Shown piece by piece: positions 27,590-60,285 of a stretch of DNA of 64,000 nucleotides (position 1 is the stretch's first letter; every line of letters begins with the position of its first letter). The position numbers were made by a program, and so were the translations under genes. This DNA is from Typha latifolia (taxonomy: Eukaryota; Streptophyta; Magnoliopsida; Poales; Typhaceae). Where the stretch lies: the NCBI GenBank assembly GCA_019914945.1, contig CM034110.1, forward strand, positions 2,175,001 to 2,239,000, read 5' to 3'. The notes beneath the pieces are model-generated. The model was not told where the DNA came from. It saw only the letters and a list, made by a program, of their open reading frames with translations, and ran no database searches.

Positions 27590-28006
27590 TGGCAATAATT
27601 ATCCACTTACGAGCGTGAAATGCTACCAATTCTGCACGCCGTTACCAAATGGCGACCCTACTTGATTGGCCGACGATTTACTATCCGCAAAGACCAACGT
27701 AGCTTACCCTACTTCATGGAGCAACGTGTGCACACCCCAGCACAACAACGGTGGGTCACTAAACTCCTTGGACATGACTTCGAGCAAGTCTACAAAAAGA
27801 GGATCAAGAACTGAACTACCGATGCCCTTTCACGCCAACCGGACGCAAGCAAGCTCACTTCCTTTTCAGCACCAACCTTTCCTCAATTTTTAGATCTGTG
27901 GGAAGCTAGTGCGCAGGATCAAGTCATGGAGGAGCTCGAGTCAGAATTCAATGATCACTTCCCTAATTTCACACCTTGAGGATAAGGTTGCGGAAGCATG
28001 GTGGAT
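27590..28006 (+). pseudogene. Family I type B fragment: RNase H end joined to element 3' end
   Basis: The plus strand encodes the end of RNase H: YEREMLPILHAVTKWRPYLIG near 27610, RTDQRS-like near 27690, QRVHTPAQQRWVTKLLG near 27730, then LTSFSAPTFPQFLDLWEAS near 27860 and MEELESEFNDHFPNFTP followed by a stop near 27978. Integrase and chromodomain are missing at the same place as in element B (MEELKPEFKDRFTNFKP). The 3' internal end GGTTGCGGAAGCATGGTGGAT precedes the LTR at 28007. The 5' part is lost at 27590. Confidence 0.85.
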
Positions 28007-30895: not shown

Positions 30896-31869
30896 TAATA
30901 CGATCTTCTCTTTGGGGCTAAGGCTCTGATACCAGCTTGATACGATCACGCCTTTTTGATAAAGGGTCGATCTCTTCCAATTCTTGATTTGGACTAGATC
31001 TGGCACGGAACTTTGAAATAAGATCCCAAAATGTTCCGCCGTTGGATCAATGTGAAATTTTGATATGTTGTCGCCCTAGAAAAGAGCTTTCCAATAAATC
31101 AAGTTTCAGGCGAATCGGAGTTGAGGATCTCGAGATACCGTCCGATTAGTGGACGAACATCAGGATGCTATGTTTTGGATCCGTGGATGGAGGCACGGGA
31201 TCCTAGGTAATGATGGTTGGTGGAGGACCGGCGTTAATGTGGTGGCACCGGTGAAAAGTGATGGTGGATGGGTTGTGGTTGATGGAAGGATTAGGGCAAG
31301 TGTGGGATAGATTGGACGAAAGGGGAGAAAAGGGCCACCCCTAAGGGACTAGGGTGATTAGCCGGACGAGGGAGGTTAGAATCGGCGTTGCCGGGGATTG
31401 AGAGAACGGGAGCGAAGAAGACGAAGGAGGCAAGGCAAAACTCAATCTCAATAATCAATCCTAATTTTGGTTGCTCTACACATCCTTTTATAAGCTAACC
31501 AACAACTCACATTAACCCTAAAACATAATTTTCGCCGACCGCGTTCGAACGCACCGAATTAGCTCTTCTAGACTTGCAAACGCGATGCAGGCGTTCGAAC
31601 GCATGATCGAACATGCCTGTCGGTATTTGCGAATGCAATGCAGGCGTTCACAGTGCGTTCGAACGCACCGCGTTCGAACGCACAGTACATTCTCTTCACC
31701 ACGTTCACAACCCCGTTCACAAACCGCGTTCGAACTCACTCCACCCGCGTTCGAACGCGACTTACAGAAAACTTATTTTAATAGAAATTAAACACTAAAA
31801 CATGAAATAAAAACACTCCTAAAGTGAATCCATGCTCGAGACGACGTCGGTGAAGTCCGAATCGTATCA
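30896..31869 (-). repeat. 3' LTR of element A with U5-side extension
   Basis: The usual terminus TGATACGATCACGCC is at 30938 and the other end (CGAATCGTATCA) at 31869. To its left, 30896-30937 holds a primer-binding-site copy (GGCTCTGATACCA at 30922-30934) and AATACGATCTTCTC, matching 35310-35351 of the other LTR. Palindrome cluster at about 31545-31765. Confidence 0.87.
31486..31492 (-). promoter_or_regulatory. LTR TATA box (element A, 3' LTR)
   Basis: TTTTATA on the plus strand reads TATAAAA on the minus strand, in the setting CTTATAAAAGGATG. It lies downstream of the palindrome cluster in LTR orientation and is at the same place in the other family I LTRs. Confidence 0.65.
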
Positions 31870-31896: not shown

Positions 31897-34800
31897 TCAA
31901 GGTTTGAAGTTCGGAAAGCGATTCATGATATCTGACTCTAGCTCCCAGGTAGACTCGTCAGTAGGTTTGCCCAGCCACTCAATTAGCACTTCAGTCTCTA
32001 ATCTGGTCCCATGGCGTCTTCTCCTACGGTCTAATACTCGGACCGATTCAGTGGGGCCATCCTCCTTCATTAGTTCGGGTAAGGCCGAACCCACCACCTG
32101 GTTAGGCCCGATCTGGGCCTTCAATGCTGATACATGGAATACCGGATGTATCCGGGTTCCTTGAGTAGGTCCAACCGGTAAGCTCTTTGGACCGATTCGT
32201 TGTAGCACTCGGTACGGACCGTAGTACTTGTAACCCAACTTTTGGTTCAAAATTGGTCTGAATGTGGATTGCCGATACGGTTGAGGTCGAACGAACACCA
32301 ATTGTTCCACCTCAAATTCTCGCTCACGTCGGCCTTTGTCATGAGTTTGCTTCATGCGGTTTTGGGCTGTGGCTAGGTGAGTCTTGAGCAGTCTCAATGT
32401 TTCATCTCGATCAGCAAGCTCGAAGTCAAGCTCGGTCCTATCCGCCGCCGCGAGTCTATCGTAGGCACGCAAGACAGGGGGAGTGCGCCCATAAACCGCC
32501 TCAAAGGGGGTCATGTCGATGCTAGAGTGATGAGCCGTATTGTATGACCACTCAGCCCATGGAAGGAATTTGACCCAATCACTTGGTCGTTCCGCCACAA
32601 AGCATCGCAAGTATTGCTCCAGTCCGCGATTCACCACCTCGGTTTGGCCATCTGTCTCGGGGTGATAAGCTGAACTCAGGTTGATTTGAGTCCCTTGCAA
32701 TCTGAAGAACTCGGACCAAAACTCACTGATGAAGATGCGATCCCGGTCTGACACGATCGTCCTAGGCATCCCATGCAAGCGTGCCACTTCCCGAACAAAA
32801 ATTTCAGCAACCCTTTTTGCTGAAAACGGGTGAGACAATGTTATTAAATGAGCATATTTGCTCAGTCTATCCACCACAACCAACACCACCGATTGTCCCC
32901 GAACCTCCGGCAGCCCCTCGATGACGTCCATGGAGATATCCTCCCAAATACGCTCTGGTATAGGTAGTGGTTGTAGCAGCCCGCTAGGCTTGAGTGCTTC
33001 CGATTTGACTCGTTGGCAGATTTGACATTCACGCACATACTTCTTCACGTCCGTCTTCATCGCTGTCCATGTACAGTTTTGGGCCAGCCGCTTGTAGGTA
33101 CGTAATACCCCTTCATGCCCTGCTATAGGAGTATCATGGAAGTGTGCCATCAATAGTCTCCGTAGCTCTTCGTTCCGGGGTACCTTGATTCGCCCGCACT
33201 CTAGTACTAACCCATCGCGCTCCTCGTGCTCGGGGTGGCTTGAGGGGTTCTCTCTCAACTCCTCTATGAGTTGGACCAGCTCACTATCCTCTGCACTAGC
33301 TCTCCGCAGATCTGAGAAGAAAGGAAAGGTGGGCGCCGAGAAAGAAGCGAGCTCCCTTGCAACCCCTTCATTTGGAAGTTCAAGTAGCGGTTGGCTTCCA
33401 TCTAGCAGCACTCTCTTGTCATTTCTCCAAAACGTCAATGTGAGGCTTGTAAAATCAAATGTCACGGGCCCCAAGCTTCGAAGCCATTGGGTCCCCAAAA
33501 CAATATCGGCACCTTGCAAGGCCAATGGATAAAGATCTAATGTGAAAGTTTGGCCTTGCACCTTCAATTCTGCACCTCCACAAATAGAATCCGCTCGCAA
33601 TGTGGTGCCATCTCCGATCGTCACATCGAACCCTTCCGTGGGTTCCGACTCGAGCCCAATCTTCCTAAGGAGCCTCTTGTCAATGAAGTTATGGGTGGAC
33701 CCGGTGTCAATCAAGATTCTCACTCTGGTTTTCTTGACTACCCCGTTCTCCCGCAAGGTCTTTGGCGTAGCTGTCCCCGAATAGGCGTGGAGGGAGATTT
33801 CGGCTATCATGTCCTCCACGGGTTGCTCCTCAGTTTCTTCTCCTTGATGTCCAGCCACATCTGTACCTTCAGCTGCAAACTCATCCTCCGCTTCCTCCAA
33901 TCCATCGATTAGCATCACCGATCCCATCGGTTTAGCGCAGCGATGCCCGGGTACAAACTTCTCATCACAACGGAAGCATAGGCCCTTGGCTCTTCTTTCT
34001 TCTACTTGGGCTGGTGTGAGTGCTTGTCCCGGACGTGCATACTTCACATCTTGGGATGGCTTCAAGGGTGCTCGAGGAGGTACCACTGTAGCAGCAACCC
34101 TTGGTACTCCGATAGTATTTCCCGCCGCTATGTTTGGTTGAGCTTGATTGTGGCTTCCTTGGCTCATCCAACTCTGTTTCAAGTGTATCTTCATGGCCCT
34201 ATGTTTGTCTTCCATAAGCACCGCATCTTCGAAGGCCTCCTTTAAGGTTCTAGGCCTTAAAGCCCTCACATCGGCTTGTATGTCACCTCGCAACCCGGAG
34301 ATGAAGGTGCTGCGAAGTTGCTGATCCGTCCATGGTGGATGACATTGGCTACTAATTTTCTCAAATTCTTCTTGGTATGACCCAACCGTGGTCTTTTGCA
34401 CCGTCTTTGAGAGGAGAGCATCAAAGTCTTCATATCCCGATGCTCCAAATCGTCGTGTGATATCGGCACAAAATTCAGCCCAAGTTTCGATAGCTTCAGT
34501 GGCATTGGCTGCTCGAAACCAATGAAGCGCCGCATCCTCAAGGTGGAAGCTCGCAAGCGTCACCTTGTACTCTTCCGCCGTTCCTTGGTATGCAAAGAAT
34601 TGCTCCGCCCTATACAACCAATCAATCGGGTCGTCACCTTTGAACTTGGGGAATTCGAGACGCACGACTTGTCCACGGATGCCATTGTCTCGTTCCGGAT
34701 CATGTCCTTGTCTAACTGGGGGAGGATGCACCATGAAGGGTTGATGATCCCTCCTTCGGTTTTGATTAACTTGTTGTGGTTCCGGATCGTATTGACCCGC

Positions 34801-35226
34801 CCACGGATCTTGATCTCCAAGGCGGTCTCCATAGTGGCTCACCCGTCGGATGGGTTCACCTACAATTGGACCTGGTGTAACCATCCTTACTTGCCTCTGC
34901 CCATAGGGTGGTGGTAGCAGCGGCTCTTGTGGTTGCAAAGGCTGACCCGGTGGCGGTGGGTTCAAGGGGGTGGACTCGCGTCGTGGGGTCGATGGTGCTT
35001 TCCCGTTCGCCCGTAGTTCCCGCATCATCTCCATCATCATCTGGTTGTTGATGGCCAATTGCTCTGAAATAGACCCCAACATGGCTTGAACGCTGGGTTC
35101 TTCCGTATTCTGATTAGATCGGGCGGTTCCACGGGTGGAAGTCCTTGCAATCGTTTCTCCCTCCTCTATTGGGAGAATCTCTTCTTCATCATCTCGCCGT
35201 GCAGCCATGGATCTGGTTGTCGTCAT
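31897..35226 (-). CDS. Gag-protease-integrase-chromodomain polyprotein lacking RT and RNase H
   Basis: One uninterrupted 1109-residue frame starting MTTTRSMAARRDDEEE. Residues 1-400 are Gag, with the core FPKFKGDDPIDWLYRAEQFF; the zinc knuckle CFRCDEKFVPGHRC is near 415; the aspartic protease motif ILIDTGSTHNF is near 507. At about 610-625 the protease end (LLDGSQPLLEL) passes straight to ELASFSAPTFPFF, the segment that follows RNase H in related copies. Integrase follows: HDTPIAGH and CQIC (zinc-binding, near 690 and 735), catalytic D in MDVIEGLPEV, D in VSDRDRIF and E in QTEVVN, the last two separated by exactly 35 residues, as the D,D(35)E signature requires. The C-terminus is a chromodomain (EVLIEWLGKPTDESTWELES). 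All visible catalytic residues of protease and integrase are intact. The missing RT means it could not copy itself alone. Whether it is expressed cannot be told from sequence. Confidence 0.93.
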   Translation of the reverse strand: MTTTRSMAARRDDEEEILPIEEGETIARTSTRGTARSNQNTEEPSVQAMLGSISEQLAINNQMMMEMMRELRANGKAPSTPRRESTPLNPPPPGQPLQPQEPLLPPPYGQRQVRMVTPGPIVGEPIRRVSHYGDRLGDQDPWAGQYDPEPQQVNQNRRRDHQPFMVHPPPVRQGHDPERDNGIRGQVVRLEFPKFKGDDPIDWLYRAEQFFAYQGTAEEYKVTLASFHLEDAALHWFRAANATEAIETWAEFCADITRRFGASGYEDFDALLSKTVQKTTVGSYQEEFEKISSQCHPPWTDQQLRSTFISGLRGDIQADVRALRPRTLKEAFEDAVLMEDKHRAMKIHLKQSWMSQGSHNQAQPNIAAGNTIGVPRVAATVVPPRAPLKPSQDVKYARPGQALTPAQVEERRAKGLCFRCDEKFVPGHRCAKPMGSVMLIDGLEEAEDEFAAEGTDVAGHQGEETEEQPVEDMIAEISLHAYSGTATPKTLRENGVVKKTRVRILIDTGSTHNFIDKRLLRKIGLESEPTEGFDVTIGDGTTLRADSICGGAELKVQGQTFTLDLYPLALQGADIVLGTQWLRSLGPVTFDFTSLTLTFWRNDKRVLLDGSQPLLELPNEGVARELASFSAPTFPFFSDLRRASAEDSELVQLIEELRENPSSHPEHEERDGLVLECGRIKVPRNEELRRLLMAHFHDTPIAGHEGVLRTYKRLAQNCTWTAMKTDVKKYVRECQICQRVKSEALKPSGLLQPLPIPERIWEDISMDVIEGLPEVRGQSVVLVVVDRLSKYAHLITLSHPFSAKRVAEIFVREVARLHGMPRTIVSDRDRIFISEFWSEFFRLQGTQINLSSAYHPETDGQTEVVNRGLEQYLRCFVAERPSDWVKFLPWAEWSYNTAHHSSIDMTPFEAVYGRTPPVLRAYDRLAAADRTELDFELADRDETLRLLKTHLATAQNRMKQTHDKGRREREFEVEQLVFVRPQPYRQSTFRPILNQKLGYKYYGPYRVLQRIGPKSLPVGPTQGTRIHPVFHVSALKAQIGPNQVVGSALPELMKEDGPTESVRVLDRRRRRHGTRLETEVLIEWLGKPTDESTWELESDIMNRFPNFKP

Positions 35227-35251
35227 TGGAAGCGCTTGTCCGAGGAAAGGT

Positions 35252-35348
35252 GGCTCTGATACCAGCTTGATACGATCACACCTCTGGCTATGGAGCTCTG
35301 ATACCAGATTGATACGATCTTCTCTTTGGGGCTAAGGCTCTGATACCA
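35252..35348 (-). repeat. Three primer-binding sites next to the 5' LTR of element A
   Basis: GGCTCTGATACCA occurs at 35252-35264 and 35336-35348, and GCTCTGATACCA at 35295-35306. Each is followed by a terminus-like T(G/T)(A/T)TACGAT (35268, 35310, 35352). On the minus strand each is TGGTATCAGAGC, complementary to the initiator tRNA-Met 3' end by the usual plant rule. The third site lies within the extended LTR. Confidence 0.87.
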
Positions 35349-36235
35349 GCTTGTTACGATTAGGCACGGAACTTTGAAATTAGATCCCGAAATATGCTGT
35401 CGTCGGATCGACGTGAGATTTTGATATGTTGTAGCCTCGCAAAAGAGCTTTCCATAAAATCTAGTTACAGGCGAATCGGAGTTGGGGATCTCGAGATATC
35501 GTTCGTTTAGTGGACGAACGTCAGGATGCTCTATTTTGGATTCGTGGATGGAGGAACGAGATCCTAGGTAATGGTGGATGGTGGTGGACCGGCGTTAATG
35601 TGGTGGCACCGGTGAAAAGTGATGGTGGAACGGTTGTGGTTGATGGAAGGATTAGGGCAAGTGTTGGATAGATTGGACGAAGGGGGAGAAGAGGGCCACC
35701 CCTAAGGGACTAGGGTGATTAGCCGGACGAGGGAGGTTACAAGCGGCGTCGCCGGGGATTGAGAGAACGGGAGCGAAGAAGATGAAGGAGGCAAGGCAAA
35801 ACTCAATCTCAATAATCAATCCTGATTTTGGTTGCCCTACACATCCTTTTATAGGCTAACCAACAACTCACATTAACCCTAAAACACAATTTTCGCCGAC
35901 CGCGTTCGAACTCGCCCGACCACGTTCGAACGCACCGAATTAGCTCTTCTGGATTTGCGAACGCGATGCAGGCGTTCGAACGCGTGATCGAACGCGTCTG
36001 TCGGTATTTGCGAACGCGATGCAGGCGTTCACAGTGCGTTCGAACGCACAGTACATTCTCTTCACCATGTTCACAACCCCGTTCACAAACCGCGTTCAAA
36101 CTCACTCAACTCGCGTTCGAACGCGACTTATAGAAAACTTATTTTAATGGAAATTAAACACTAAAACATAAAATAAAAACACTCTTAAAGTGAATCCATG
36201 CTCGAGACGACATCGGTGAAGTCCGAATCGTATCA
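35310..36235 (-). repeat. 5' LTR of element A with U5-side extension
   Basis: It ends at 36235 (GAATCGTATCA). Its other end is TGATACGATCTTCTC at 35310, beyond the ordinary terminus at 35352, so it includes a primer-binding site. Part of the terminal region (the ATCACGCC... stretch) is missing relative to the 3' LTR: TGTTACGATT joins AGGCACGGAAC at 35361. Palindrome cluster at about 35900-36125. Confidence 0.85.
35847..35853 (-). promoter_or_regulatory. LTR TATA box (element A, 5' LTR)
   Basis: TTTTATA on plus, in CATCCTTTTATAGGC, reads GCCTATAAAAGGATG on the minus strand, a good TATA context. It would drive genomic RNA of element A toward lower coordinates. Confidence 0.7.
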
Positions 36236-37357
36236 ATAGGAGAGTTAGAGAGAGAGAGAGGCATGCGCGGGTCATGCGCTAAGCGAGTGACCTGACTTTT
36301 TTTTTTTCTAAGACGCTACAATATATCTTTTTGCTAACATAAATGTTATGGGGCGTATAAATATGCTAGCCTAAGCTCTTATTGTACCGTTTTAAAGTTC
36401 GGTTAATATATACTTTTTGCTACATGTATAAATATTGACGAAACAACTTAAAACAACTATTTTTAATAGATAGTAAATATATTTATTGAGGTATAGATTT
36501 GTCGGGTGAAGTAGTTTTGCCGTGACTATTTTACATGGGATAACATTTTTTTTTCCCTGCAGTTAAATAACGGAGCAAAGCAATATAAGTTTAATTGGGA
36601 GGGGGAAAACCGGAGTGCAGAGAGCTCGAGGGAAAATAACAGGATGGGAGCTGACTTTTTCTCGATGGAAGTGGTTTCGCGTACGTAAAACAAATGGATT
36701 ATTATTCTTTGACATTCCAAGAAATATTAAGAAAGCTCCCGTGAAATCAAGCTGTCGCCCAAGAAATGACAACGGCCGCGAAGAAAATATATTTAAAACA
36801 ATGACGATCCATCCGCCCAATTCAAACGACGAAATAATACAATGAAAGTAAGGAAAGCACGTTTTGCTCCCCGTGGACGCTGCAACTACAACCACCCGTC
36901 TCTTTCTCTAATTTCAAATAGTAGAATAAACCGTCTCTTTCTCTAATTTCAAATGGTAGAATAAATTTTGCATTCTGATATCATTCCCTTAAACAAAACA
37001 AGACATCCTTTTAGTAGTTGATCAACTAATTCTAAAGCTGTTCCAGAAGATATTGGTTTTAGCCTTTTAGGTCAGAGGTTAGTTGGGGTTTGCTTCAAGG
37101 CTTAATAAAAGTCCATCTCAAGGACCAGGTAAGAGATCACAACAAGAAACTCTAGAAACTATTAAGAACGTAGAAATTTCCAATGAGGGGGAGACCGGGA
37201 GAGAGACGCTAAGATTTGTAGTCTAGTGTTAGTACTATTATCAAGTTGTTTATGTACAACGTCTACGTCTGTGCGTATGTAACAAACTGACAGTATGGCA
37301 AGTATTCGTACTTACAAACATTTGATACTAAGTCACTGAAACATTCCTACAAACATC
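36236..37357. other. Low-copy-looking intergenic DNA downstream of the ACR gene
   Basis: AT-rich with a short GA microsatellite at 36238-36262. No coding region, RNA gene or retroelement domain is recognised. It lies 3' of the minus-strand ACR gene, so its right end should include that gene's 3' UTR. Confidence 0.5.
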
Positions 37358-38997
37358 TTACGAGCAGGACCTAATGAGGCCAAGATATGAGAGATTCCTC
37401 CACACTAGGCTGCCAAAATTGAACAACCCAGCTCCACCACCACTTGCGTCATCCCCAGCCGAGCAATGGCGCCGAAGACGCTCCTCGTTCACTTTGAGAC
37501 TCTCCACGCCGATCCTATTGATGACGGCTTCGATCGTCATAGCGTCTGCTGGGTTGCCGGCGGAGTCGGTCACGTAGAATTCGTTCATTGCCATCTCGCC
37601 TTTGGTCGTCACCTCAGCCCTCGTCACCATTAGCCCATACTCGCGGAACGTCCTGGTAACGTCGGCGAGCAGCCCTCTTCGATCTAATGTTCGCAGTTCC
37701 AACCTTATTCCCTGCTCCGGAAAAGGAAAATTTCTGATTATTTACAAGATTTATGAATTGGATTTCTCTGGAATGGAAGTTAAGATACCTCAGATGCTCT
37801 GCGCCCAATGGCGGCCTGCAAGCATTGGATCACCCGCTGCCTCTCTGCCTCAGATCTAATCGGGCAGCCGTCCAAATGTTTGATGTAAAACTCCTGAGAG
37901 GAAAACAAACAAAGCCCATGACGAGTTACCAACCAAAACATCCAAAAGAGAAAGATTGACAAAGAAGAGATCAAAGAACCCACCTGGCAGGCTGTCTCAC
38001 CATTGGTGTGGATAGTGCCATGGAAGACAACATACTCCATGTCCGTGAGAGCACATACAATGTCCAACAGTAGCTTAGGGCGATCGCGGCATCGGACGGC
38101 GACGACTGAGTAACCGCGTTCCGCCCAGTCCAACACCGTGACGGACTCTGCCTCGCTGGATGCCGCAATACGCTCGTAGTCGCGGTCGGCAAACATCAAC
38201 TGGTGGAGCCTACGGTCAGAATTTGTAGTGGCCGGTGAGGACATTGTCGCTCTCACACCAAGGACGCCATCCTCGCCCTTGAGCACCTTCCTCAGCCGTG
38301 CTTCCATGTGGTGGATTCTATACTCATCGGCGATGGGCGAGCCCGAGTCCAAATCCTTGACGAGGACGATGGAAGCGATGCGGCCGTTGTGGGTCCAAAC
38401 CTTGGCGTCCACCACGCTGCAGTTAAGCTCCGCCAGCACCGCGAAGACTTCCGATAAGAGCCCGAGGCGGTCGGCGCCGGTGAGCTCCAAGGCCGTGAGG
38501 TTGGCGAACTCGGCGTTGTTGGGTACAGAGTCGGCGGCAGAGTCGGCGCTGAGCGCGCGCTCGATGGAGGAGATGACGGCGGTGTCGGTGATCTTGCAGC
38601 CGAGGAGGTCGATGACATGGAATACGTCCATGAACCAGCGGCCATCGGAGGAGATGTAGCCCTTAGTGATGGTGAGGCCAAGATCCGAAAGGACTTGGAT
38701 AGCTTCCAAGAGATTCCCGTGCTTCCGAGCGCTATCCACCTACGACACCAAGTTATTCAAACGAAAGTTAGAGAATAAAACAACTCGATTGCGGAATTGG
38801 GTGATAATTATAGTTTGCAACGGTGAAGGATTACCTTGACTAGTGTTGCGGTGGGGGAGACGGCATTGTCGATGACGACCCTGTGAGATTGGAGCCAAAG
38901 GAGGTCAATTAAATTTCAGAGCAAAAGGAGAGGAAAAACAAAAAGAGACGAACCTGGGATTGTTCATGCCATTCACGAGCTTCTCGTACTCATCCAT
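37358..38997 (-). CDS. ACR: ACT-domain-repeat (ACR) protein, five exons
   Basis: Minus-strand exons by GT-AG splicing: 38997-38954, 38880-38835, 38739-37984, 37893-37789 and 37711-37358, giving 1305 nt and 434 residues plus stop. Introns are 73, 95, 90 and 77 nt. The start MDEYEKLVNGMNNPRVVIDN is the usual ACR opening, and 434 residues suits a family of roughly 440. Four ACT domains are seen: near 26-100 (VDSARKHGNLLEAIQVLSDL), 112-190 (LTGADRLGLLSEVFAVL), 239-315 (RCRDRPKLLLDIVCALTDM) and 320-400 (LRTLDRRGLLADVTRTFREY). The linker has RRLHQLMFADRDYE, a hallmark of plant ACR proteins. ACT domains bind small ligands, often amino acids; plant ACRs are thought to be regulatory or sensing proteins without an enzyme domain. 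The 90-nt intron has no stop in frame, so an unspliced reading also stays open. The coding exons are much richer in GC than the surroundings. Which ACR paralogue it is cannot be decided. Confidence 0.95.
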
Positions 38998-40980
38998 GCA
39001 TCGCCTCTTCTTTCCTTCCCCTTCTCTTGTGAAATTTCAAACTCTCTGCCTTGCTCTTCCCCTGTTTTCCTCTGTTCTTCCTACGGGAGACGCACAAGAA
39101 TTGCAAAAGTTACATAAACCCAAGACTATGGGCTTTCTCCTATTTGTCAAACCGGCCACGTATCTACGCTAAAAATAGATACTCCGACCCAAGTCAAATA
39201 CTTCCTCGGGCAGCCATTCTCTTACTTGTGCCAGAAGTTACCATTAATGCAAGCCCGTCTAGATCGTTTTCAAGCTCATACTGCACTGGTTATTTAAGTG
39301 GACCAATTTTGAAAAGATGCAGACGAGAAATAGAGTAAATATTTAGGCTAATTTGGATTTTTCTGCTAACTAACCTTCTGTACCTTACAATCCTGGGGCC
39401 ATTTAATTGCACAGAAGTTAGGTAGGTAGATAGTTGTTAGTCTTCATTAATAAATCTTAATCCTTTCGTCGTACTTTTTAAGGTCCTCAGGGCTGTAATC
39501 TGCCACGGGGATGCGTAGCTTAACTTACGAAATTATTTATTCTTAATGAAACACTAGTGAGGGGATCAGGACTAAGGAGATGGTCGGCCGACTTACCGGA
39601 AAGTAGACACTGACAGGAACCGGGACGCGCTGGTGGAGGGGGAGGCATGTTGACGTGTCGTACTTCGAATGGTCGGAGTGGTGGTCAGGGGACAAGGACA
39701 TCGAGGCGCACGCCCTGGCACGTGAGGCCATTCGAATGAGTCGCCACGTTTCGCGAGCGGAGACGGTCGTGCGACGCGGTGGCTCAGAGTCGGCATGCGG
39801 CGTCCGCACAAGGACAAAAGGTGCGGGCCTTCCGAATAGAAAAGATTAAAGCTGAAACAATTTCGGGACTTTTCCATTCACAGCATTAGAATAGAAAAAA
39901 TAAAATTAACTTGGGTGATTTTTGGAAAAAATAAAGAAACATAAGGCATTTTAAGTTTTCGTGAGTCAGACTCACTTTATATTTTATTTACATGTTAGAC
40001 TTTTTTCTATTTATTTCTTAACTTTGCCCTTAAATTATGCGGTGAAGAAAAATAAATTTAATCAGTCAAGTTTGATGGTTTTAGTAAATTGTACTATTTT
40101 GTCGATGGAGTGAGTAATAATAAGGTGTGAAATAAATTACATAATAAAAAGAAAAAATATATAAATTTAGAATTAATATACATTAATTAGTTACGGTAAA
40201 TTATGTTTAATAAAACTTCTCAAATTCTCTATATCTTTGTTTCTGATGAGAAATTTTATATTTGACATTTAATTTAGTTAAATACTATGAAGAAAATAAT
40301 GGTTGCAAGATTATAAATGTTAAGTTTAAAACGGATGGGCTATTTGAAATTGAGTCAAATCACCGGATAGTAAAATATAATTTTTCCTAACTTTTAATAT
40401 TACATAGATATTATACTTTTTTTGTTTTGGATAGAAGAAGAGAATTTATAATTAATGTAAAATTTGAGCAACCAATTGTCCATTTATAGATGAATACCAG
40501 AAAAGAATAAAATTTTATACTATTATAGAATAACATATCTAATCAACCAATTCTCGGACACCTTTTTATTTACCCCGAGACTAAGATCTCGTTTTATTAG
40601 TTCATAACGTTCTTTAATGATTAACTTTATACGTATCTCTTAAATATAAATTATATACATCTATAATTTTATTTTATTTTGTTGTTTGGTTATAAAACAT
40701 AATGATTACTATGAATAGAATTATGCAAGAATTTGTATTTACTTACTATAAATAAGTATGTTAATTATAAAAAAATCTTGCTCAGAAAATATGCATAACT
40801 TTATCACATCTTCTACATCTACTTGTAACAAAATTATGTTCATAACTTAACTTGTATAAGGTCTGACCAAAATATATATAAATAAATATTTGGCTGTAAA
40901 ATATATTTAGGGGAGTCCTCTACTTTTACATGTGACAAAATTATGTGCATAACTTATTATGTCTTAAGTCTTTACTATCT
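38998..40980. other. Intergenic DNA upstream of the ACR gene
   Basis: 38998-39100 is CT-rich (GA-rich on the gene strand) and fits a 5' UTR. 39560-39830 is a GC-rich patch with short open frames that I do not recognise. 39870-40980 is strongly AT-rich with no gene seen. The promoter of the ACR gene should lie here but no convincing TATA box stands out. Confidence 0.5.
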
Positions 40981-43900: not shown

Positions 43901-45260
43901 TTGAACGGCATAACTCAAGATTAGTTGCTAAGGGCTACACCTAACAAGAAGGATTGGACTTCATTGAAATATTTTCTCTGGTCGCTAAGTTGGTAACTAT
44001 TAAAGTACTCTTGGCAATTGCTTCAAATACAATTGGCCATTGATCCAGCTTGATGTTAATAATGCTTTTCTACATTGTGTGACTTATTTGAGGAGGTTTA
44101 CATGGACTTACCTCTTGATTATTGACAATCCTATTCTATTGTTAAGGGGAGAAACTTGTATGTCAATTACACAAATCAATTTATGGATTAAAACAGGAAT
44201 TTTCATCAGTGGTTCTCAAAGTTTTCTAAGCACTTCTTCAACATGGTTTTCATCAATCCAAGTTAGATTATTCTTTTTTCATTAAAGGATCTAGAACAAA
44301 TTTCATTGCTCTCTTAGTTTTATGTTGATGATATACTCATAACAGGTTCTAATCCTCAAGCCATTACTTCTCTCAAAAAGTTTCTTAACACTTATTTCAA
44401 ACTTAAAGATTTAGGCAAGCTGAAATATTTCCTTGTCTTGAAATTGCTTGATCTGGCTAAAGGAATTTTCTCTCTCAAAGACATTATACACTTCACTTAC
44501 TTGAGGATACATGCTTTCTTGCTTCCAAACCAACTATTTTGCCTATGAATCCTAAACTCACACTAAGTTCTTTTGAAGGAGATCTACTTGAAGATGCACC
44601 GTTGTACAAAGGCTTGTGGGAAAATTGCTTTATCACATAATTTTCAGGTCTACCATTACTTTTGCAGTTCACAAACTTAGTTAGTTTGCATCCAACCCTA
44701 GACAGGCACATCTAGCTGTTGTTCATCATCTTCTTCAATTTCTAAAAGCAATTCCAAGTCAAGGCTTGTTAGTTTCCCCATCCTCCTAATTTTAACTTTG
44801 TGCATTCTCTAATGTTGATTAAGGTTCTTGTCTCGATTCTAGGAAGTCAATCACTAGATTTTGTATCTTCTTAGGAGACTCCTTAGTCTCTTGGAAAGCT
44901 ATGAAGCAAACAAATCTTTCTCGCTCTTTTCCAGAAGTCGAATATAGAGCTGTAGCCTCTACAACCAAGTGAGCTTATTTGGCTTCATCAACTTCTCCAA
45001 GACTTTATTATATCTGCAACACCTACTCTCCTCTTTTGTCATAATCAAGTTGCCATTCACATAGCCTCCAATCGCATATTCCATGAGCAAACTAAACACA
45101 TCGGGATCAATTGTCACTTTGTTTGATACAAACTTTTTGAAGGATTTTTGAAGCTTCTACCTATTAGAAGAACTCATCAACATGCTCTGATCTTTTTTTC
45201 ATTACTACGTAAGATGACCATCTATAACATTCATGCTCTTGAGTCCATCTTGAGGGAGAG
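40981..45260 (+). pseudogene. Decayed Ty1/copia retrotransposon internal region
   Basis: Plus-strand order: Gag start (SQPLTGENYISCSRAMLITL near 41010, IKNKECFIDG near 41080), a zinc knuckle THCGNEGHIIDRCYKLH near 41660, protease remnant near 41990 (WIVNSGAISHIC-like), the pre-integrase segment KLWHQRLGNLSFKRLD near 42410 with HHPCSICLLAKQ near 42500, integrase remnants to about 43350, RT ([19 protein letters not shown] near 43810; [11 protein letters not shown] near 43910; FYVDDILI at 44318-44340) and RNase H remnants ([15 protein letters not shown] near 44940). It ends near 45260 with LESILRESN and a purine-rich GAGGGAGAGT. Many stops and frameshifts. No LTR pair or primer-binding site was found. 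Confidence 0.85.
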
Positions 45261-46379
45261 TAACAGAATAAATAACATAATTAGTTAGCCTATTGTTATA
45301 GTTGAAAAAAACCTAAACACATGTATGTCTCTAAACCCTAGGCAATGATATCACCCATTTGCTTAAATAAATGCGAAATAAATATTGAAAAACTAAAGCA
45401 AAGATGAACACCAAGATTTTTATGTGGAAAAATCTAAATAGAAAAAAAAATCACGGATCCAAACCCGGATCAAAACCAATCACTAGAACTGTAGTAGTTA
45501 CAAGGCTAACTTACAATATAACTCGTCGATCCGTACGACTTTGTTTCTCTCAGTCTCACTTGATAGAACCCATGATTCACTACTTCCCATAATTTATCTC
45601 CAATCTCAGTAGCCATCGAGATTGATCCTTCATGAAGATGACCCTTAAGATGAAAGATTGGTGCAATATAGAAGAGACGGACCTTGTTGGTAGAAGAATG
45701 ATGTAGCCTCAAGAACTCTTTTTCAAAAGCATTCACCAACACTCCTACAGTTATATGTTGCTAAGAGAAGGCCAAATTCAAGTCATATTAGAACTCAAAT
45801 AAGTCTAGTATTTTGCATATTACATAGGTGCATTCGAATGCGGTCTAAGTGCGTTCGAACGAGCTGACTTGTTCTCAAGTGTGTTTGAATGGGCCTATGT
45901 ATGTTTGAACGCGATGACTTGATTTTTACTAGTTGAGTTTGAACGCGCACATATACTCCTCTATATGTGTGAACGTGCTGTGAACAGCCCTTGATTGCGT
46001 TCGAATGGCAAAAATGTGTTATTTGTATTTGCAAATGTCTGAACACGCATTTGAACGACATGAACACGTTCTCTATATTTGCGAACACCTAAACACGCGA
46101 TCAAGTGAAAGTAACTTGAAGTAAGATCATACAAAATTAAAGATAGTAAACACATAGGATCTAAACTTCAATTATCATAAAAGCAAAACAACAACTTATC
46201 ATCTAAGCCAAGCATTCAGCACAATATACATAATAATGCAAATAAAGCAAAATGCAAAATGCAACTCTCTCCTTACTCCCCCCTAAACTAAATTCCCTAC
46301 TCCTAAATTCGATCTCTTACTATCTCTCACTCTCTCACTCTCACTCACTCTTCCCCTTTTTGATAGAAAATTTCAAAGT
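45261..46379. other. Unassigned repeat-like DNA with a GCGTTCGAACGC-type cluster
   Basis: 45830-46100 holds a run of TTCGAA/TTTGAACGCG-type motifs and CTCTATATTTGCGAAC, very like the U3 clusters of the gypsy LTRs, but the flanks do not match family I or II LTRs. 46260-46360 is CT-rich. No gene is seen. Confidence 0.5.
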
Positions 46380-47530
46380 CTAAGCACTAGGAGGAGGAAA
46401 GTGGCGATGAAGGATAGATAGCACAAGAATCAAACACAGTCCCTAACGAGCTTGCTCAGCTCATATCTCTGCTATAGTAGTAGAAAACCTAGCAACTATC
46501 AATTGCAAATTATGAACCTGATTGCTGAGTTGATCAAACCGCTCATTCATAAATTGAAACTCTCTTAGGTTTATAAGATTCATCATCAAAGCTGTCCCCA
46601 GAAGAGATTTCTTAGTGTGATCGTGGTTCAGCGGCAGAATAGGAAGTCAGTTTAAAAGGAGATGGTGCATCATGAGCTTGACTCCTTTGCATAGTGATCT
46701 GATTCAATGGTTTTTGTGCCTTAATAGATGCTTTAGATGAATCAACTCTCACATCACTCTGCATACAAAGTTTGGTAATAAAAATCCCAAATGACAAACC
46801 TTCAAGAGGAGCCTCTTTTAATGCTGCTAACACAATGCTATCATAAATGACTAAGGCAATGTCAATAGACAATAAGCATTGTGTGAAGAAGAAACGCCCT
46901 GATCATGATTGATGCTAGAGTGCCGAGTCTTTGGTGTGACATTATAGAGACAGATTAAGTGCAACATGCGAGCCACTAAAGTCAACTTGGCATATGGCAT
47001 CATATTGCTTTGCCACTCTTACCCCTGTGGTAAGATATCACCAGCAATATATTGAACAGAAGAAAGAGGTTCAGAAAAAGGATACTCAAAGTTGCCCGAT
47101 GAAAAATGAAACTCTACTTGAATAACGTCAAAATCTAGATAGACAGACACACCACGGACTGTTGACCAAATACACTAGTTCAAAACAATTGCATTGCTAA
47201 AAAATTCACAAACAACATCCACATAAGCAGTCATGTCCATCTTACAGATTTTTAGCCACCCATGCTCAGTAAAAAAATTTTCAATTCCCAAGGGTGCAAA
47301 ATCAGTTATGGCCACTGGTCTCTCACATATTATCGGGCAAGTTCCAAAATTATGCTTATATCTTCTTACAACACTTGATGATAAAAATTTTGGGGAAGAT
47401 AATGGCGAAGAAGGGGGCCTTGGCCTCTTGAAAATGTCTACTTTTTTAGGCATTCTAAAGATAAAACACATCGTAACATTCAAAGCATACTCAAAACAAT
47501 ATAAAAATAAAAAAATCCAAGAAACCATGA
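46380..47530 (-). pseudogene. Remnant of a 'putative plant transposon protein' ORF
   Basis: Minus-strand pieces: MPKKVDIFKRPRPPSSPLSS near 47450, a segment ENFFTEHGWLKICKMDMTAY near 47250 followed by VCEFFSNAIV near 47195, then YDSIVLAALKEAPLEGLSFG with IFITKLCMQSDVRV near 46750, and a coiled-coil-like tail (QFDQLSNQVHNLQLIVARF) near 46500. This order resembles the plant transposon-associated protein family often found in LTR elements (Pfam 'Putative plant transposon protein'), but I rely on pattern memory only. Broken by frameshifts and stops. Confidence 0.5.
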
Positions 47531-48816
47531 AAACCCTAAGTGAAATCCATATTCTACATAAAAAAAGGCAAGTTTGTCACATTCAATCGCTCAAGAAATA
47601 TCAAGATAAAATCTCTATCGTGATCAAAACTTCAAAACGCATGAAATCAACCAAGATCAAGGAGGCTAATTTGGATTAAAAAAAAAAGAAAGTATTCTCA
47701 AATCATACCTCGCAAAAAAAATGATGAAGAACTTGAAGATTCACACCCAGAAACACTAGATCTAGAGTAGAAATGCCCTTTGAGAGAATGTAGAGTGGAA
47801 GATTTAGTAAAAAAATTGGAAATTTTGATGATTTAAGAGAGTGGATGAAAAGGGTTTTAGGGTTTGAAGATGGGAAAGATGAAACATTAGGTTCTGACGC
47901 AATATATAAAGAACACGTGTGCGTTCAAACGCACTAGTCCACACGTTCGAATGCGACAGAACCGACATTCGAACTCAAAAGTCTTGCATTCGAATGCGGC
48001 ATTTTTTTCATTTAGAATAGAAAATTCTAAACATTTTTTGTGATGCTCTTCTAAAAATTCAGAATAAATTCAAGATATAAATATGACAATCAAATGAAAT
48101 AAGTCATACACAAATCAATCAAATTATTAAGAGCATATTATGATCAACTTTAATGCATCACACAAATTATAAATTAATCTTGATTGATCATAACAAAATA
48201 CATACGCAAGCGGAGCATTAACAATATAAAACAACCTTATTAAATAAACTTTCCTATTAAACAATAATGCAACACAGTAGTCAAACCGATTTAGTATATA
48301 TTTATGCACTTTTCGACTTATTCTCTAAAATTTGACAAGAATTTTTTTTGTATTATTTTGATCACTGGAACTATATAAGTGCAATGATAGCTTTCACACA
48401 TGAGTAGGTAGCTATTTTCTTATAGTATATAATAAACAATGTATAAATATATATATTTTTTCAAAAAATTTCAAGCAATGTACTAAGTCAAAGTGGACTC
48501 TAAACAAGATGGCTTTCACACTAACTCATTGTAGCCCTTTCCATTGATCTTTTATGAATACATTACTGTTGACTAAGTATGAGGTCAAACTGTGCAAATC
48601 AAAGTCAATAATGAGCTACCCAAGAAAATATTTCATGATGTCCTGCTCACTCAAGAATATACACAAGTTATGAGGGCATTAAATTTAATTTAATTATTAC
48701 ATAAGTCGAGAGAGTAAATAAATTTGAAATGACATAATATACTACAATATGAAAAATTGACTATAATAACTCATAATCAAGAGAAGGTTATATATAGGGT
48801 TTAGGGTTTAGAATTT

Positions 48817-48854
<38 letters not shown>

Positions 48855-48891
48855 CATATAATCTAGAAGTGCACCAATTTTTTTTAAACTC
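47531..48891. other. Unassigned AT-rich DNA left of element B
   Basis: It includes a short GCGTTCAAACGC/GTTCGAATGCG cluster at 47918-47998, two TTTAGGG units at 48793-48810 and a (TA)n microsatellite at 48819-48853. Because element B split a copia element here, the right part should be the 3' end or 3' LTR of copia element G, but no LTR boundary was found. Confidence 0.5.
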
Positions 48892-49844
48892 TGATACGAT
48901 TCGGACTTCACCGACGTCGTCGTGAGCATGGATTCACTTTAGGAGTGTTTTTATTTCATGTTTTAGTGTTTAATTTCCATTAAAATAAGTTTTCTGTAAG
49001 TCGCGTTCGAACGCGGGTGGAGTGAGTTCGAACGCGGTTTGTGAACGGGGTTGTGAACGTGGTGAAGAGAATGTACTGTGCGTTCGAACGCACTGTGAAC
49101 GCTTGCATCACGTTCGCAAATACCGACAGGTGCGTTAGATCACGCGTTCGAACGCCTGCATCGCGTTCGCAAATCCAGAAGAGCTAATTCGGTGCGTTCG
49201 AACGCGGTCGGGCGAGTTCGAACGCGGTCGGGCGAGTTCGAACGCGGTCGGTGAAAATTGTGTTTTAGGGTTAATGTGAGTTGTTGGTTAGCCTATAAAA
49301 GGATGTGTAGGGCAACCAAAATTATTATTGATTATTGAGATTGAGTTTTGCCTTGCCTCCTTCGTCTTCTTCGTTCTCATTCTCTCAATCCCCGGCGACG
49401 CCGCTTCTAACCTCCCTCGTCCGGCTAATCACCCTAGTCCCTTAGGGGTGGCCCTCTTCTCCCCCTTCGTCCAATCTATCCAACACTTGCCCTAATCCTT
49501 CCATCAATCACAACCCTTCCACATCACTTTTCACCGGTGCCACCACATTAACGCCGGTCCACCATCCACCATTACCTAGGATCTCGTGCCTCCATCCACG
49601 GATCCAAAACAGAGCATCCTGACATTCGTCCACTAAACGAACGATATCTCGAGATCCCCAACTCCGATTCACCTGAAACTTGATTTATTGGAAAGCTCTT
49701 TTCTAGGGAGACAACATATCAAAAGTTCACATCGATCCAACGGCGGAATATTTTAGGATCTTATTTCAAAGTTCCGTGCCAGATCTAGTCCTGATCAATA
49801 ATTGGAAGAGATCGACCCTTTACCAAAAATGCGTGATCATATCA
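48892..49844 (+). repeat. 5' LTR of element B
   Basis: Starts TGATACGATTCGG, ends GTGATCATATCA. U3 carries seven TTCGAACGC-containing motifs between 49005 and 49245, including a 20-bp unit repeated in tandem (GCGAGTTCGAACGCGGTCGG). The TATA box is at 49294. Confidence 0.95.
49294..49300 (+). promoter_or_regulatory. LTR TATA box (element B, 5' LTR)
   Basis: TATAAAA in the setting GCCTATAAAAGGATGTG, about 50 bases after the last palindrome motif. It is conserved at 53742 and in both LTRs of element A. Confidence 0.75.
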
Positions 49845-49847
49845 AGC

Positions 49848-49860
49848 TGGTATCAGAGCC
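49848..49860 (+). promoter_or_regulatory. tRNA-iMet primer-binding site of element B
   Basis: TGGTATCAGAGCC, an exact match to the plant initiator-tRNA-Met site, three bases after the LTR end. Single copy here. Confidence 0.92.
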
Positions 49861-49885
49861 ACCTTTCCTCGGACAAGCGCTTCCA

Positions 49886-51844
49886 ATGACGACAACTAGA
49901 TCCATGGCTGCACGACGAGATGATGAAGAAGAGATTCTCCCAATAGAGGAGGGAGAAACGATTGCAAGGACTTCCACCCGTGGAACCACCCGATCTAATC
50001 AGAATACGGAAGAACCTAGCGTTCAAGCCGTGTTGGGGTCTATTTCAGAGCAATTGGCCATCAACAACCAGATGATGATGGAGATGATGCGGGAACTACG
50101 GGCGAACCGGAAAGCACCATCGACCCCACGACGCGAGTCCACCCCCTTGAACCCACCGCCACCGGTTCAGCCTTTGCAACCACAAGAGCTGCTGCTACCA
50201 CCACCCTATGGGCAGAGGCAAGCAAGGATGGTTACACCAGGTCCAGTTGCAGGTGAACCCATCCGACGGGTGAACCACTATGGAGACCTCCTTGGAGATC
50301 AAGATCTGTGGGCGGGTCAATACGATCCGAAACCACAACAAGTTAATCAAAACCGAAGGAGGGATCATCAACCCTTCATGGTGCATCCTCCCCCAGTTAG
50401 ACAAGGACATGATCCAGAACGAGACAATGGCATCCATGGACAAGTCGTGCGTTTCGAATTCCCCAAGTTCAAAGGTGGCGACCCGATCGATTGGTTGTAT
50501 AGGGCGGAGCAATTCTTTGCATACCAAGGAACGACGGAAGAGTACAAGGTGACGCTTGCGAGCTTCCACCTTGAGGATGCGGCGCTTCATTGGTTTCGAG
50601 CAGCCAATGCCACTGAGGCTATCGAAACTTGGGCTGAATTTTGCGCCGATATCACACGGCGATTTGGAGCATCGGGATATGAAGACTTTGATGCTCTCCT
50701 CTCAAAGACGGTGCAAAAGACCACGGTTGGGTCATACCAAGAAGAATTTGAGAGGATTAGTAGCCGATGTCATCCACCATGGACGGATCAGCAACTTCGC
50801 AGTACCTTCATCTCCGGGCTGCGGGGTGTCATACAAGCCGATGTGAGGGCTTTAAGGCCTAGAACCTTAAAGGAGGCCTTCGAAGATGCGGTGCTTATGG
50901 AAGACAAAAATAAGGCCATGAAGATACACTTGAAACAGAGTTGGATGAGCCAAGGAAGCCGCAATCAAGCTCAACCAAACATAGCGACGGGAAATACTAT
51001 CGGAGTACCAAGGGTTGCTGCTACAATGGTACCTCCTCGAGCACCCTTGAAGCCATCCCAAGATGTGAAGTATGCACCTAGAGGTCCGGGACGAGCACTC
51101 ACCCCAGCCCAAGTAGAAGAAAGAAGAGCCAAGGGCCTATGCTTCCGTTGTGATGAGAAGTTTATACCCGGGCATCGCTGCGCTAAACCGATGGGATCGG
51201 TGATGCTAATCGATGGATTGGAGGAAGCGGAGGACGAGTTTGCAGCTGAAGGTGCAGATGTGGCTGGACATCAAGGAGAAGAAACTGAGGAGCAACCCGT
51301 GGAGGACATGATAGCCGAAATGTCCCTCCACGCCTATTCGGGGATAGCTGCGCCAAAAACCTTGCGGGTAAACGGGGTAGTTAAGAAAACCACAGTGAGA
51401 ATCTTGATTAACACCGGGTCCACCCACAACTTCATTGACAAGAGGCTCCTTAGGAAGATTGGGCTCGAGTCGGAACCCATGGAAGGGTTCGATGTGACGA
51501 TCGGAGATGGCACCACATTGCGAGCAGATTTTATTTGTGGAGGTGTGGAATTGAAGGTGCAAGGCCAAACTTTCACATTGGACCTTTATCCGTTGGCCTT
51601 GCAAGGTGCCGATATTGTTTTGGGGACTCAATGGCTTCAAAGCTTGGGGCCCGTAACATTTGATTTCTCAAACCTCACACTGACATTTTGGAGGAATGGA
51701 AGAAGGGTGCTGCTGGATGGAAATCAACCGCGGCAAGGGCCGACATTGCAACCACTTGTGGGTTTTCCTTATGCAGGGGACCGAGCTCTACTATTGCAAA
51801 TGGCTGTTGTTGAACCAGAACATCCACACCACCAAAGGAAGTAG
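49886..51844 (+). CDS. Gag-protease of element B
   Basis: The start at 49886 (MTTTRSMAARRDDEEE) is chosen because it matches element A; a frame opening at 49802 would begin inside the LTR and read through the primer-binding site. Gag runs to about residue 410, with the core FPKFKGGDPIDWLYRAEQFF near 195 and the zinc knuckle CFRCDEKFIPGHRC near 420. The protease motif reads INTGSTHNF: codon 509 (51410-51412) is AAC, so the catalytic Asp is Asn and the enzyme is probably inactive. The frame ends soon after the protease (LLDGNQPRQGP...), 147 bases into the next frame. Gag is nearly identical to that of element A. Confidence 0.92.
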   Translation: MTTTRSMAARRDDEEEILPIEEGETIARTSTRGTTRSNQNTEEPSVQAVLGSISEQLAINNQMMMEMMRELRANRKAPSTPRRESTPLNPPPPVQPLQPQELLLPPPYGQRQARMVTPGPVAGEPIRRVNHYGDLLGDQDLWAGQYDPKPQQVNQNRRRDHQPFMVHPPPVRQGHDPERDNGIHGQVVRFEFPKFKGGDPIDWLYRAEQFFAYQGTTEEYKVTLASFHLEDAALHWFRAANATEAIETWAEFCADITRRFGASGYEDFDALLSKTVQKTTVGSYQEEFERISSRCHPPWTDQQLRSTFISGLRGVIQADVRALRPRTLKEAFEDAVLMEDKNKAMKIHLKQSWMSQGSRNQAQPNIATGNTIGVPRVAATMVPPRAPLKPSQDVKYAPRGPGRALTPAQVEERRAKGLCFRCDEKFIPGHRCAKPMGSVMLIDGLEEAEDEFAAEGADVAGHQGEETEEQPVEDMIAEMSLHAYSGIAAPKTLRVNGVVKKTTVRILINTGSTHNFIDKRLLRKIGLESEPMEGFDVTIGDGTTLRADFICGGVELKVQGQTFTLDLYPLALQGADIVLGTQWLQSLGPVTFDFSNLTLTFWRNGRRVLLDGNQPRQGPTLQPLVGFPYAGDRALLLQMAVVEPEHPHHQRK

Positions 51845-53330
51845 CCTCGACATGGAAGAGCTGCTGCGGGAGTTTCAGGATCTCTTCAAGGAACCCCGAG
51901 GACTACCGCCGAACCGTCGTCATGACCATCGCATCCAAATCATTTCAGGGGCTGAACTCGCGAATGTCCGACCCTATCGGTACCCGCATGTCCAGAAGGA
52001 AGAGATCAGTAAATTGGTGGAGGAAATGCTCGAGCAAGGGATTATTCAACCGAGTAGAAGTGCCTACTCATCGCCGGTGCTGCTGGTTCGGAAGAAAGAC
52101 CGGAGTTGGCGGTTTTGCGTCGACTACCGAGCCTTGAATGCAATTACTGTCAAGGACCGGTATCCAATACCGGTGATTGAGGAGTTGGTGGATGAGCTCA
52201 CAGGGTCGGCCTACTTCAGCAAACTTGACTTAAGAGCGGGATACCATCAAATCCGAGTCGACCTTGAAGATGTACACAAAACGGCGTTCCGAACTCACGA
52301 TGGCCACTATGAGTTCCGAGTCATGCCGTTTGGGCTCACCAATGCACCGGCCACCTTCCAAGAGCTGATGAATGACCTCTTCCGCCCACTCTTGCGTCGA
52401 TACGTGCTCATCTTCTTTGATGATATTCTAGTATATAGCAGGAATTGGAGTGAGCACTTGCGGCACGTGCGGAAGGTATTAAATATCTTGCGACAAAACC
52501 AGCTAAAAGTTCAGATGAGCAAGTGTCTTTGGGGAGAGTCAAGAGTGGAGTACTTGGGGCATATAATCTCTGTAAAAGGAGTGGAAGCCGACCCAAGCAA
52601 GATCAAGAATATGGTGGATTGGCCGATTCCTACTAATCAGAGGGAATTGAGGGGATTCCTTGGATTGACATGGTACTACCGGCGATTTGTTGCCAACTAT
52701 GGCAAAATTGCTGCCCCACTGACCTCCTTACTCAGAAAAGGTGGGTTTCAATGGACGGGCAAAGCAACGGAGGCCTTCGAAGCCTTGAAGACAGGTATGT
52801 CTACAGCTCCGGTTCTAGCACTACCAGATTTCGGCAAACCCTTTGTGGTGGAGTGCGACGCTTCGGGTGAGGGCATTGGAGCAGTTTTGATGCAAGAGGG
52901 CAGACCCGTGGCATATATGAGCAAAGCATTGTCAAGTCAGTCGCGACAGCTATCTACCTACGAGCGCGAAATGCTAGCGATTCTACACGCCGTCACCAAA
53001 TGGCGACCCTACTTGATTGGCCAACGATTTACTATCCGCACGGACCAGCGTAGCTTACCCTACTTCATGGAGCAACGTGTGCACACCCCAGCCCAACAAC
53101 GGTGGGTCACAAAACTCCTTGGGTATGACTACAAATTAGTCTACAAAAAGGGGATTGAAAATCGAGCCGCCGATGCTCTTTCGCGCCAATCGGACACAAG
53201 TGAGCTTGCCGCTCTTTCAGCACCAGCATTTCCTATATCTTCAGATATGTGGGGAACCAATGCAGAAGATCATACCATGGAGGAACTTAAGCCAGAGTTC
53301 AAAGATCGCTTCACAAACTTCAAACCTTGA
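51696..53330 (+). CDS. Reverse transcriptase-RNase H of element B (integrase lacking)
   Basis: This frame is +1 relative to Gag-protease; genuine Pol sequence begins at about 51800 (SSLDMEELLREFQDLF), so the first 35 or so codons are an out-of-frame reading of protease. RT motifs: [68 protein letters not shown] and FFDD at 52413-52424. RNase H residues are all present: D in VECDASG, E in YEREML, D in RTDQRSLPY and D in RAADALSRQ. After SAPAFPISSDMWGTNAEDH the frame reads MEELKPEFKDRFTNFKP and stops; the last part is the chromodomain tail, so integrase and chromodomain are deleted. Since RT and RNase H look intact, this element could supply reverse transcription but not integration. Confidence 0.92.
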   Translation: MEEGCCWMEINRGKGRHCNHLWVFLMQGTELYYCKWLLLNQNIHTTKGSSLDMEELLREFQDLFKEPRGLPPNRRHDHRIQIISGAELANVRPYRYPHVQKEEISKLVEEMLEQGIIQPSRSAYSSPVLLVRKKDRSWRFCVDYRALNAITVKDRYPIPVIEELVDELTGSAYFSKLDLRAGYHQIRVDLEDVHKTAFRTHDGHYEFRVMPFGLTNAPATFQELMNDLFRPLLRRYVLIFFDDILVYSRNWSEHLRHVRKVLNILRQNQLKVQMSKCLWGESRVEYLGHIISVKGVEADPSKIKNMVDWPIPTNQRELRGFLGLTWYYRRFVANYGKIAAPLTSLLRKGGFQWTGKATEAFEALKTGMSTAPVLALPDFGKPFVVECDASGEGIGAVLMQEGRPVAYMSKALSSQSRQLSTYEREMLAILHAVTKWRPYLIGQRFTIRTDQRSLPYFMEQRVHTPAQQRWVTKLLGYDYKLVYKKGIENRAADALSRQSDTSELAALSAPAFPISSDMWGTNAEDHTMEELKPEFKDRFTNFKP

Positions 53331-54246: not shown

Positions 54247-54251
54247 AACTC

Positions 54252-60244: not shown

Positions 60245-60285
60245 AGGAAGCGCGTGTCGAGGAACCAAGTGGCTCGATACCAGCT

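Follow-up and report, generated by a model that had tools for sequence, protein, structure and literature searches.

The 64,000-nucleotide stretch of Typha latifolia DNA analysed here (hereafter the window) contains two retroelements, A and B, of one chromovirus family, named here family I, and each lacks the enzymes that the other has kept: A encodes Gag, protease, integrase and chromodomain without reverse transcriptase (RT) or RNase H, and B encodes Gag, RT and RNase H without integrase. Both deletions recur with the same junctions in other copies within the window and in proteins from other sequence sources. We propose, with a probability of about 0.5, that A and B represent two old lineages of this family, each without what the other kept, which would complement each other in mixed particles.

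Reciprocal gene content of elements A and B

A preliminary description of this DNA had presented element A as one frame for Gag, protease, integrase and chromodomain from which RT and RNase H were removed. Pfam bears this out, the strand being minus: the 1109 codons match Gag, RVP, H2C2, rve, SH3 and Chromo, and RVT and RNase H are absent. The zinc finger and core of the integrase are present in a single frame with Gag and protease, and the Chromo domain (2.6e-07, residues 1063-1106) lies at the integrase C terminus, as in plant chromoviruses. For element B, Pfam matched RVT_1 and RNase H, and integrase and chromodomain are absent, also as described; B, which lacks the chromodomain, closes with residues that match those at the end of A. 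The catalytic motifs are present in the enzymes described as intact, namely DTG in the protease and D-D-E in the integrase of A, and FFDD in the RT and the acidic residues of the RNase H of B. Neither element encodes the full set of Gag, protease, RT, RNase H and integrase expected of an autonomous long terminal repeat (LTR) retrotransposon. In the full-length relative P0007, integrase follows RNase H in one pol, and A and B hold one half each.

Family I LTRs start with TGATACGATTCGG and end with ATCGTATCA, followed by the primer binding site (PBS) TGGTATCAGAGC, presumably of the initiator tRNA-Met type, to which it would be complementary. The reported near-identity of A and B was confirmed: their Gag-protease DNA agrees at 1774/1848 positions (96.0%), and the LTRs of A are 91.5-94.9% like those of B. 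All four LTRs are identical in their first 23 bases and differ at 0-2 sites in their last 15; the polypurine tract (PPT) and LTR start are identical in A and B, and the PBS matches. Common LTR ends, PBS and PPT are also expected of an autonomous/non-autonomous pair of the Cereba/Quinta type (see below). Element B has LTRs, PBS, PPT and a 5-bp target-site duplication, and A has all of these except the duplication. The occurrence of AACTC on both sides of B indicates that its insertion produced a target duplication; between the two LTRs of B, 32/887 sites differ (K = 0.037).

Shared deletion junctions

Junction alignment placed the A-type junction at three window loci (A, C and D2) and the B-type junction at two (B and G); these counts leave aside locus F, which is cut before either junction, and the end of a chromodomain at 13847-14170, neither of which can be assigned to a type. 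Microhomologies of about 4 bases (GGAC) and of 6 bases (GGAGCT) were found at the junctions. A stretch of 24 bp between two CAACC repeats is kept in D2 and B and lost in A and C. Since D2 keeps what A and C have lost, one ancestral deletion of RT and RNase H must have come first and the nested deletion later, which makes the A-type deletion old and inherited.

Proteins from outside the window extend this picture. Among 75 protein matches (predicted proteins, candidates of about 610-1940 amino acids), the closest named relatives of A are from Typha angustifolia. One representative each of four protein clusters from T. angustifolia (42 member sequences in all, 35+3+3+1) was read for the A-type junction, which is present in all four representatives; these also lack the 8 residues matching the nested 24-bp deletion. 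An integrase core without an RT or RNase H model was found in 4/75 matches, all from Typha, and the same four are the only proteins with neither RT nor RNase H among the 20 matches of a second search. The B-type junction is present in one of 120 proteins (the best 120 of 7422 matches), namely P0079, a 437-amino-acid protein from a 1462-bp JGI metagenome contig that is 93% identical to B. Neither viral contigs nor genome contigs, the latter searched by pattern only, gave an exact match to the 26-base PPT/LTR pattern, and no relatives of P0001 or P0003 were found among the viral contigs.

A reading in which A and B each died by a single deletion after insertion, and are complementary in appearance only, might draw on the missing target duplication of A and the lesions of B. 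It is refuted by the presence of both junctions in further copies and in proteins of other origin (three loci and four cluster representatives for the A type, two loci and P0079 for the B type), and its probability is next to nil; the case of isolated deletions, which the preliminary description had named as one that would refute its interpretation, does not hold. Alternatively, recurrent splicing of a full-length RNA could produce both forms anew, so that common junctions would not mean common descent. Such splicing would account for identical junctions and for the closeness of the A and B Gag sequences, and retrocopies of spliced RNA are reportedly known for human L1. However, the inferred 5' edge is not followed by GT, whether for the A deletion (as read in B) or for the B deletion (as read in C and in D2), which argues against splicing; 4-6 base matches stand at both junctions; and the second deletion, away from the junction and present in A and C and not in D2, fits inheritance. 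We judge this origin very unlikely. Seen at the level of sequence, each form is an inherited lineage without what the other has, as a two-component arrangement would require.

Table 1. Family I features in the window.
Feature	Position	Strand	Remarks
A 5' LTR	35268..36235	-	starts with TGATACGATTCGG; extra U5-end/PBS modules at 3' end
A primer binding site TGGTATCAGAGC	35253..35264	-	further copies at 35295 and 35337
A open frame	31897..35226	-	Gag, protease, integrase, SH3, chromodomain; no RT, RNase H
A-type deletion junction (RT and RNase H gone)	33347..33366	-	junction alignment
A recombination switch point, protease region	33463..33501	-	upstream B-like, downstream like C/F/D2; MaxChi
A 3' LTR	30938..31869	-	no target-site duplication matching 5' side
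B 5' LTR	48892..49844	+	LTR alignment
B Gag-protease frame	49886..51844	+	ATG at 49886, stop at 51844; protease NTG
B RT-RNase H frame	51696..53330	+	C-terminal tail nearly that of A
B-type deletion junction (integrase and chromodomain gone)	53277..53297	+	junction alignment
B 3' LTR	53360..54246	+	target-site duplication AACTC at 48887-48891 and 54247-54251
C, second A-type copy	9571..12901	-	junction 10992-11011; frames broken; 5' LTR 12943-13813
D2, third A-type copy	1619..3545	-	junction 1814-1832; ends before integrase core; 24-bp spacer within 1855-1884
G, second B-type copy	27600..28905	+	RNase H end, B junction 27926-27946, PPT, 3' LTR 28007-28905
F, Gag-protease fragment of family I	8022..9615	-	cut before either junction; type unassignable

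Constraint on the retained enzymes

Ratios of non-synonymous to synonymous change (omega) are mostly below 1 in ten Nei-Gojobori comparisons, for which intervals were bootstrapped and stop codons of the partner copy skipped. For the integrase of A and C, omega is 0.38 [0.23-0.65] over 278 codons, and for the C-terminal part with the chromodomain 0.30 [0.19-0.51]. Gag-protease gave 0.29 [0.22-0.40] for A/C, 0.27 [0.20-0.33] for A/D2, 0.31 [0.24-0.43] for A/F and 0.37 [0.24-0.57] for A/B (609 codons); within the latter pair, values were 0.22 [0.11-0.45] for protease and 0.39 [0.19-0.94] for Gag. The RNase H of B and G yielded 0.14 [0.07-0.27] over only 81 codons. The retained enzymes (integrase in A/C, RNase H in B/G) therefore look constrained, and because A and C share the nested deletion, the integrase was probably under selection inside elements that already lacked RT. 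At a grass substitution rate of 1.3e-8 (PMC9744471, as given in the available part of that paper), rough ages, which include decay after insertion, are about 7 million years for synonymous divergence of the A/C integrase, about 18 million years for the B/G RNase H and 1.4 million years for the LTR pair of B.

Exchange between the two lineages

Gag-protease identity is higher between A and B than for A-C (85.1%), B-C (84.8%) or C-F (87.7%), and D2 is 79-80% identical to all others. The LTRs of A likewise resemble those of B and are only 77-78% like those of C, yet A and C have the junction and the nested deletion in common. MaxChi located a switch between A positions 33501 and 33463, about 100-135 bp ahead of the A-type junction, with a value reached in 0/5000 shuffles. 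Left of the switch 236 informative sites group A with B and 28 group A with C, and right of it 5 and 10, respectively; a stricter site set gave the same switch (148/23 on the left, 4/11 on the right). Downstream of it, A, C, D2 and F have Asn-Asp and T. angustifolia has Asp-Asp, and B and the RT-bearing proteins P0007 and P0018 have Asn-Gly.

Since Gag-protease and LTRs of A are B-like while its junction and nested deletion are those of C, the shared 5' half (LTR, Gag and most of the protease) has, on the alignments, passed from one of the two lineages to the other, or both have received it from the same complete element; the MaxChi signal is silent on which of the two is the recombinant. The simplest explanation for such a mosaic would be template switching between co-packaged RNAs.

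Is there a complete helper?

No family I locus with both RT and integrase was found in the window by tblastn with the RT and RNase H of B and the integrase of A (E <=1e-4). At 80% identity or more, RT was matched only in B, RNase H only in B and G, and integrase only in A and C; the remaining matches, at 54-78% identity, are taken as other families. A helper from a different family is a further alternative: pieces of another chromovirus family lie at 16046-20140 (Gag, protease, RT, RNase H, integrase and chromodomain) and at 21470-24006 (RT, RNase H, integrase and chromodomain). With every domain represented by pieces at the first locus, and with PBS-like sites, exact or nearly so, around both, mobilisation of A and B from there is conceivable. 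Their identity to B or A is, however, only 63-68% in RT, 60-78% in RNase H and 55-64% in integrase, their frames are broken, and no family I LTR start (<=3 mismatches) occurs between 14 and 28 kb, which leaves this source improbable.

A far stronger alternative is that an autonomous full-length member of family I located outside the window mobilises both forms as ordinary derivatives, their complementarity being incidental. This arrangement is the one proposed for wheat and barley elements in the available portions of PMC11302176, PMC9744471 and PMC5738225. A full-length relative does exist in P0007 (1627 amino acids; 64% identity over the integrase part of A and 75% over the RT-RNase H of B), and deletion derivatives are known in other plants. 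On the other side, besides the absence from the window of a family copy with RT and integrase, each derivative keeps a constrained frame for enzymes that the other lacks, and no named Typha full-length protein, or any with RT, was found among the 75 and the 20 matches; the latter absence is weak evidence, because predicted protein sets may leave out RT-bearing models. We regard a complete helper as a serious possibility, nearly equal in standing to complementation between the two partial lineages.

A possible two-component arrangement

Under the proposed complementation, A-type and B-type RNAs, with their matching LTR ends, PBS and PPT, would enter the same Gag particles. The A-type RNA would supply protease and integrase for processing and insertion of both forms, the B-type RNA would supply RT and RNase H for the copying of both, and template switching would mix the parts common to both RNAs. 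The deletions themselves could have come from template switching, of which short matches such as GGAC and GGAGCT at the junctions are expected. A full-length helper may contribute, but is not required by this model. Of the five criteria for cross-mobilisation set out in the available part of PMC9744471, two are agreement of the PBS and of the LTR termini; A and B match in LTR starts, PBS and PPT.

Taken together, the data suggest that A-type and B-type families move by sharing enzymes. The two-component interpretation offered in the preliminary description thus gains from the shared junctions and from recombination between A and B of the kind that co-packaged RNAs would show; mutual dependence of the two types is plausible. 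It is tempting to go further and to imagine a bipartite retroelement resembling a multipartite virus, in which a Gag-RT-RNase H RNA and a Gag-protease-integrase RNA are obligately co-packaged and the reciprocally deleted lineages have lasted millions of years without a full-length parent, but this stronger version is doubtful.

Several observations weigh against complementation. Neither the A nor the B copy is likely to be fully competent today. The supposed protease remnant of B reads NTG where DTG is expected, so that the catalytic Asp is gone, and its Gag-protease and RT-RNase H are encoded in two overlapping frames offset by one base, both of which amend the preliminary description. Element A has no target-site duplication between its 5' and 3' flanks, its LTRs are mismatched (88/906 sites), and a stretch of about 14 residues in the C-terminal module of its integrase reads GPKSLPVGPTQGTR, as against GPVAYRLDLPEGTR in aligned relatives. 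The T. angustifolia relatives have lost the Gag capsid as well, and would therefore need Gag from elsewhere, and RT-less deletion derivatives occur in other plants too (P0023, P0025, P0029). The constraint on RNase H comes from a short alignment, and in one of the ten comparisons, the Gag N-terminus of A/B, omega is not different from 1 (0.94 [0.33-4.01]). Synonymous divergence between A and C is uneven (0.19 in the integrase, 0.37 in Gag-protease and 0.50 in the C-terminal part). This leaves room for a later exchange of the integrase core, conceivably with complete elements, and part of its constraint may stem from the time spent in them. Finally, DNA-level exchange is a possible source of the mosaic, and template switching would equally be expected between each form and a full-length parent.

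Further details concern the state of the A locus. Its 3' flank starts midway through the protease of another element, and no front part of that element was found at the opposite flank of A; together with the missing duplication and the LTRs unlike each other, this indicates a rearranged or recombined locus. Dating A by its LTRs was rejected, as the pair differs more than either does from the LTRs of B (44-78 sites) and no target duplication is present. The end of its 5' LTR (35253-35348, minus strand) contains three U5-end/PBS modules 42 bp apart, with TGGTATCAGAGC in each, which looks like the result of slippage between PBS and U5. A second similar element after the 3' LTR of A is not supported, the PBS-like bases there being the LTR-end module also found in the 5' LTR.

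Comparison with known partnerships

Non-autonomous LTR elements are usually thought to depend on one complete helper. TR-GAG, LARD and TRIM elements, which are of this kind, are generally described as carrying Gag only or no coding sequence, unlike A and B, which keep catalytic domains. A close parallel is that of RLG_Cereba and RLG_Quinta of einkorn wheat, related elements with common LTR ends and PBS, for which mutualism has been proposed: Cereba is complete, and Quinta, without RT and integrase, keeps Gag as a proposed protein contributor (PMC11302176, available sections). A and B differ in that each keeps the enzyme set that the other lacks, and no complete partner was seen in the window. 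RLG_Wilma with RLG_Sabrina and RLG_WHAM of wheat and barley are similar in that they are non-autonomous, reach high copy numbers, encode Gag or Gag-protease in some cases and are thought to be moved in trans, but in the accessible portions of PMC9744471 and PMC5738225 they lack both RT and integrase and their presumed helper is complete. Likewise CR2-Sb-B and noaCR5-Sb of sorghum are non-autonomous centromeric chromoviruses whose variants recombine to give prolific recombinants; RT and integrase are absent or truncated in most CR2-Sb-B, and the part of PMC4079200 available describes no reciprocal RT-only and integrase-only forms.

The reciprocal pair is thus different from known partnerships, which have a complete partner or lack both enzymes. 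No RT-only/integrase-only pair was found among the literature matches listed, which mostly exclude subscription papers, and the Typha literature among them held no work on these elements. If the proposed complementation is true, reciprocal loss, with a constrained frame kept in each form for the enzyme lost by the other and with 5' halves exchanged, would show a way in which a retroelement can pass from parasitism to mutual dependence, and one that is directly testable in a small plant genome.

Other features of the window

Element E (58874-61229, minus strand) has an LTR at 61229-60286 that resembles the LTRs of A and B at 77-78%, a Gag N-terminus and then a 394-amino-acid frame, P0199. The latter has no Pfam match, and over its first 255 residues it resembles, at 58%, the sequence that replaces the Gag capsid in T. 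angustifolia P0004, from the 35-member cluster; its predicted model (mean pLDDT 35) is too poor to name a fold. By its predicted content, element E indicates that a third, capsid-less form exists.

The window contains many pieces of LTR retrotransposons nested in one another; ARAGORN, and Rfam at the gathering threshold, gave no hits. At 12943-14170 (minus strand) a chromodomain end and PPT adjoin the 5' LTR of C, so that one LTR serves two internal regions. A solo LTR of family I type with the target-site duplication AGGGG lies at 5774-6637 (minus strand), inside the integrase region of another element. Tandem PBS-like copies of TGGTATCAGAGC (0-1 mismatch, 21-bp spacing) at 15151-15204 and 25710-25763 (minus strand) belong to another family. 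Between A and B, at 37780-38739 (minus strand), is a piece of a plant ACT-domain (ACR-like) gene.

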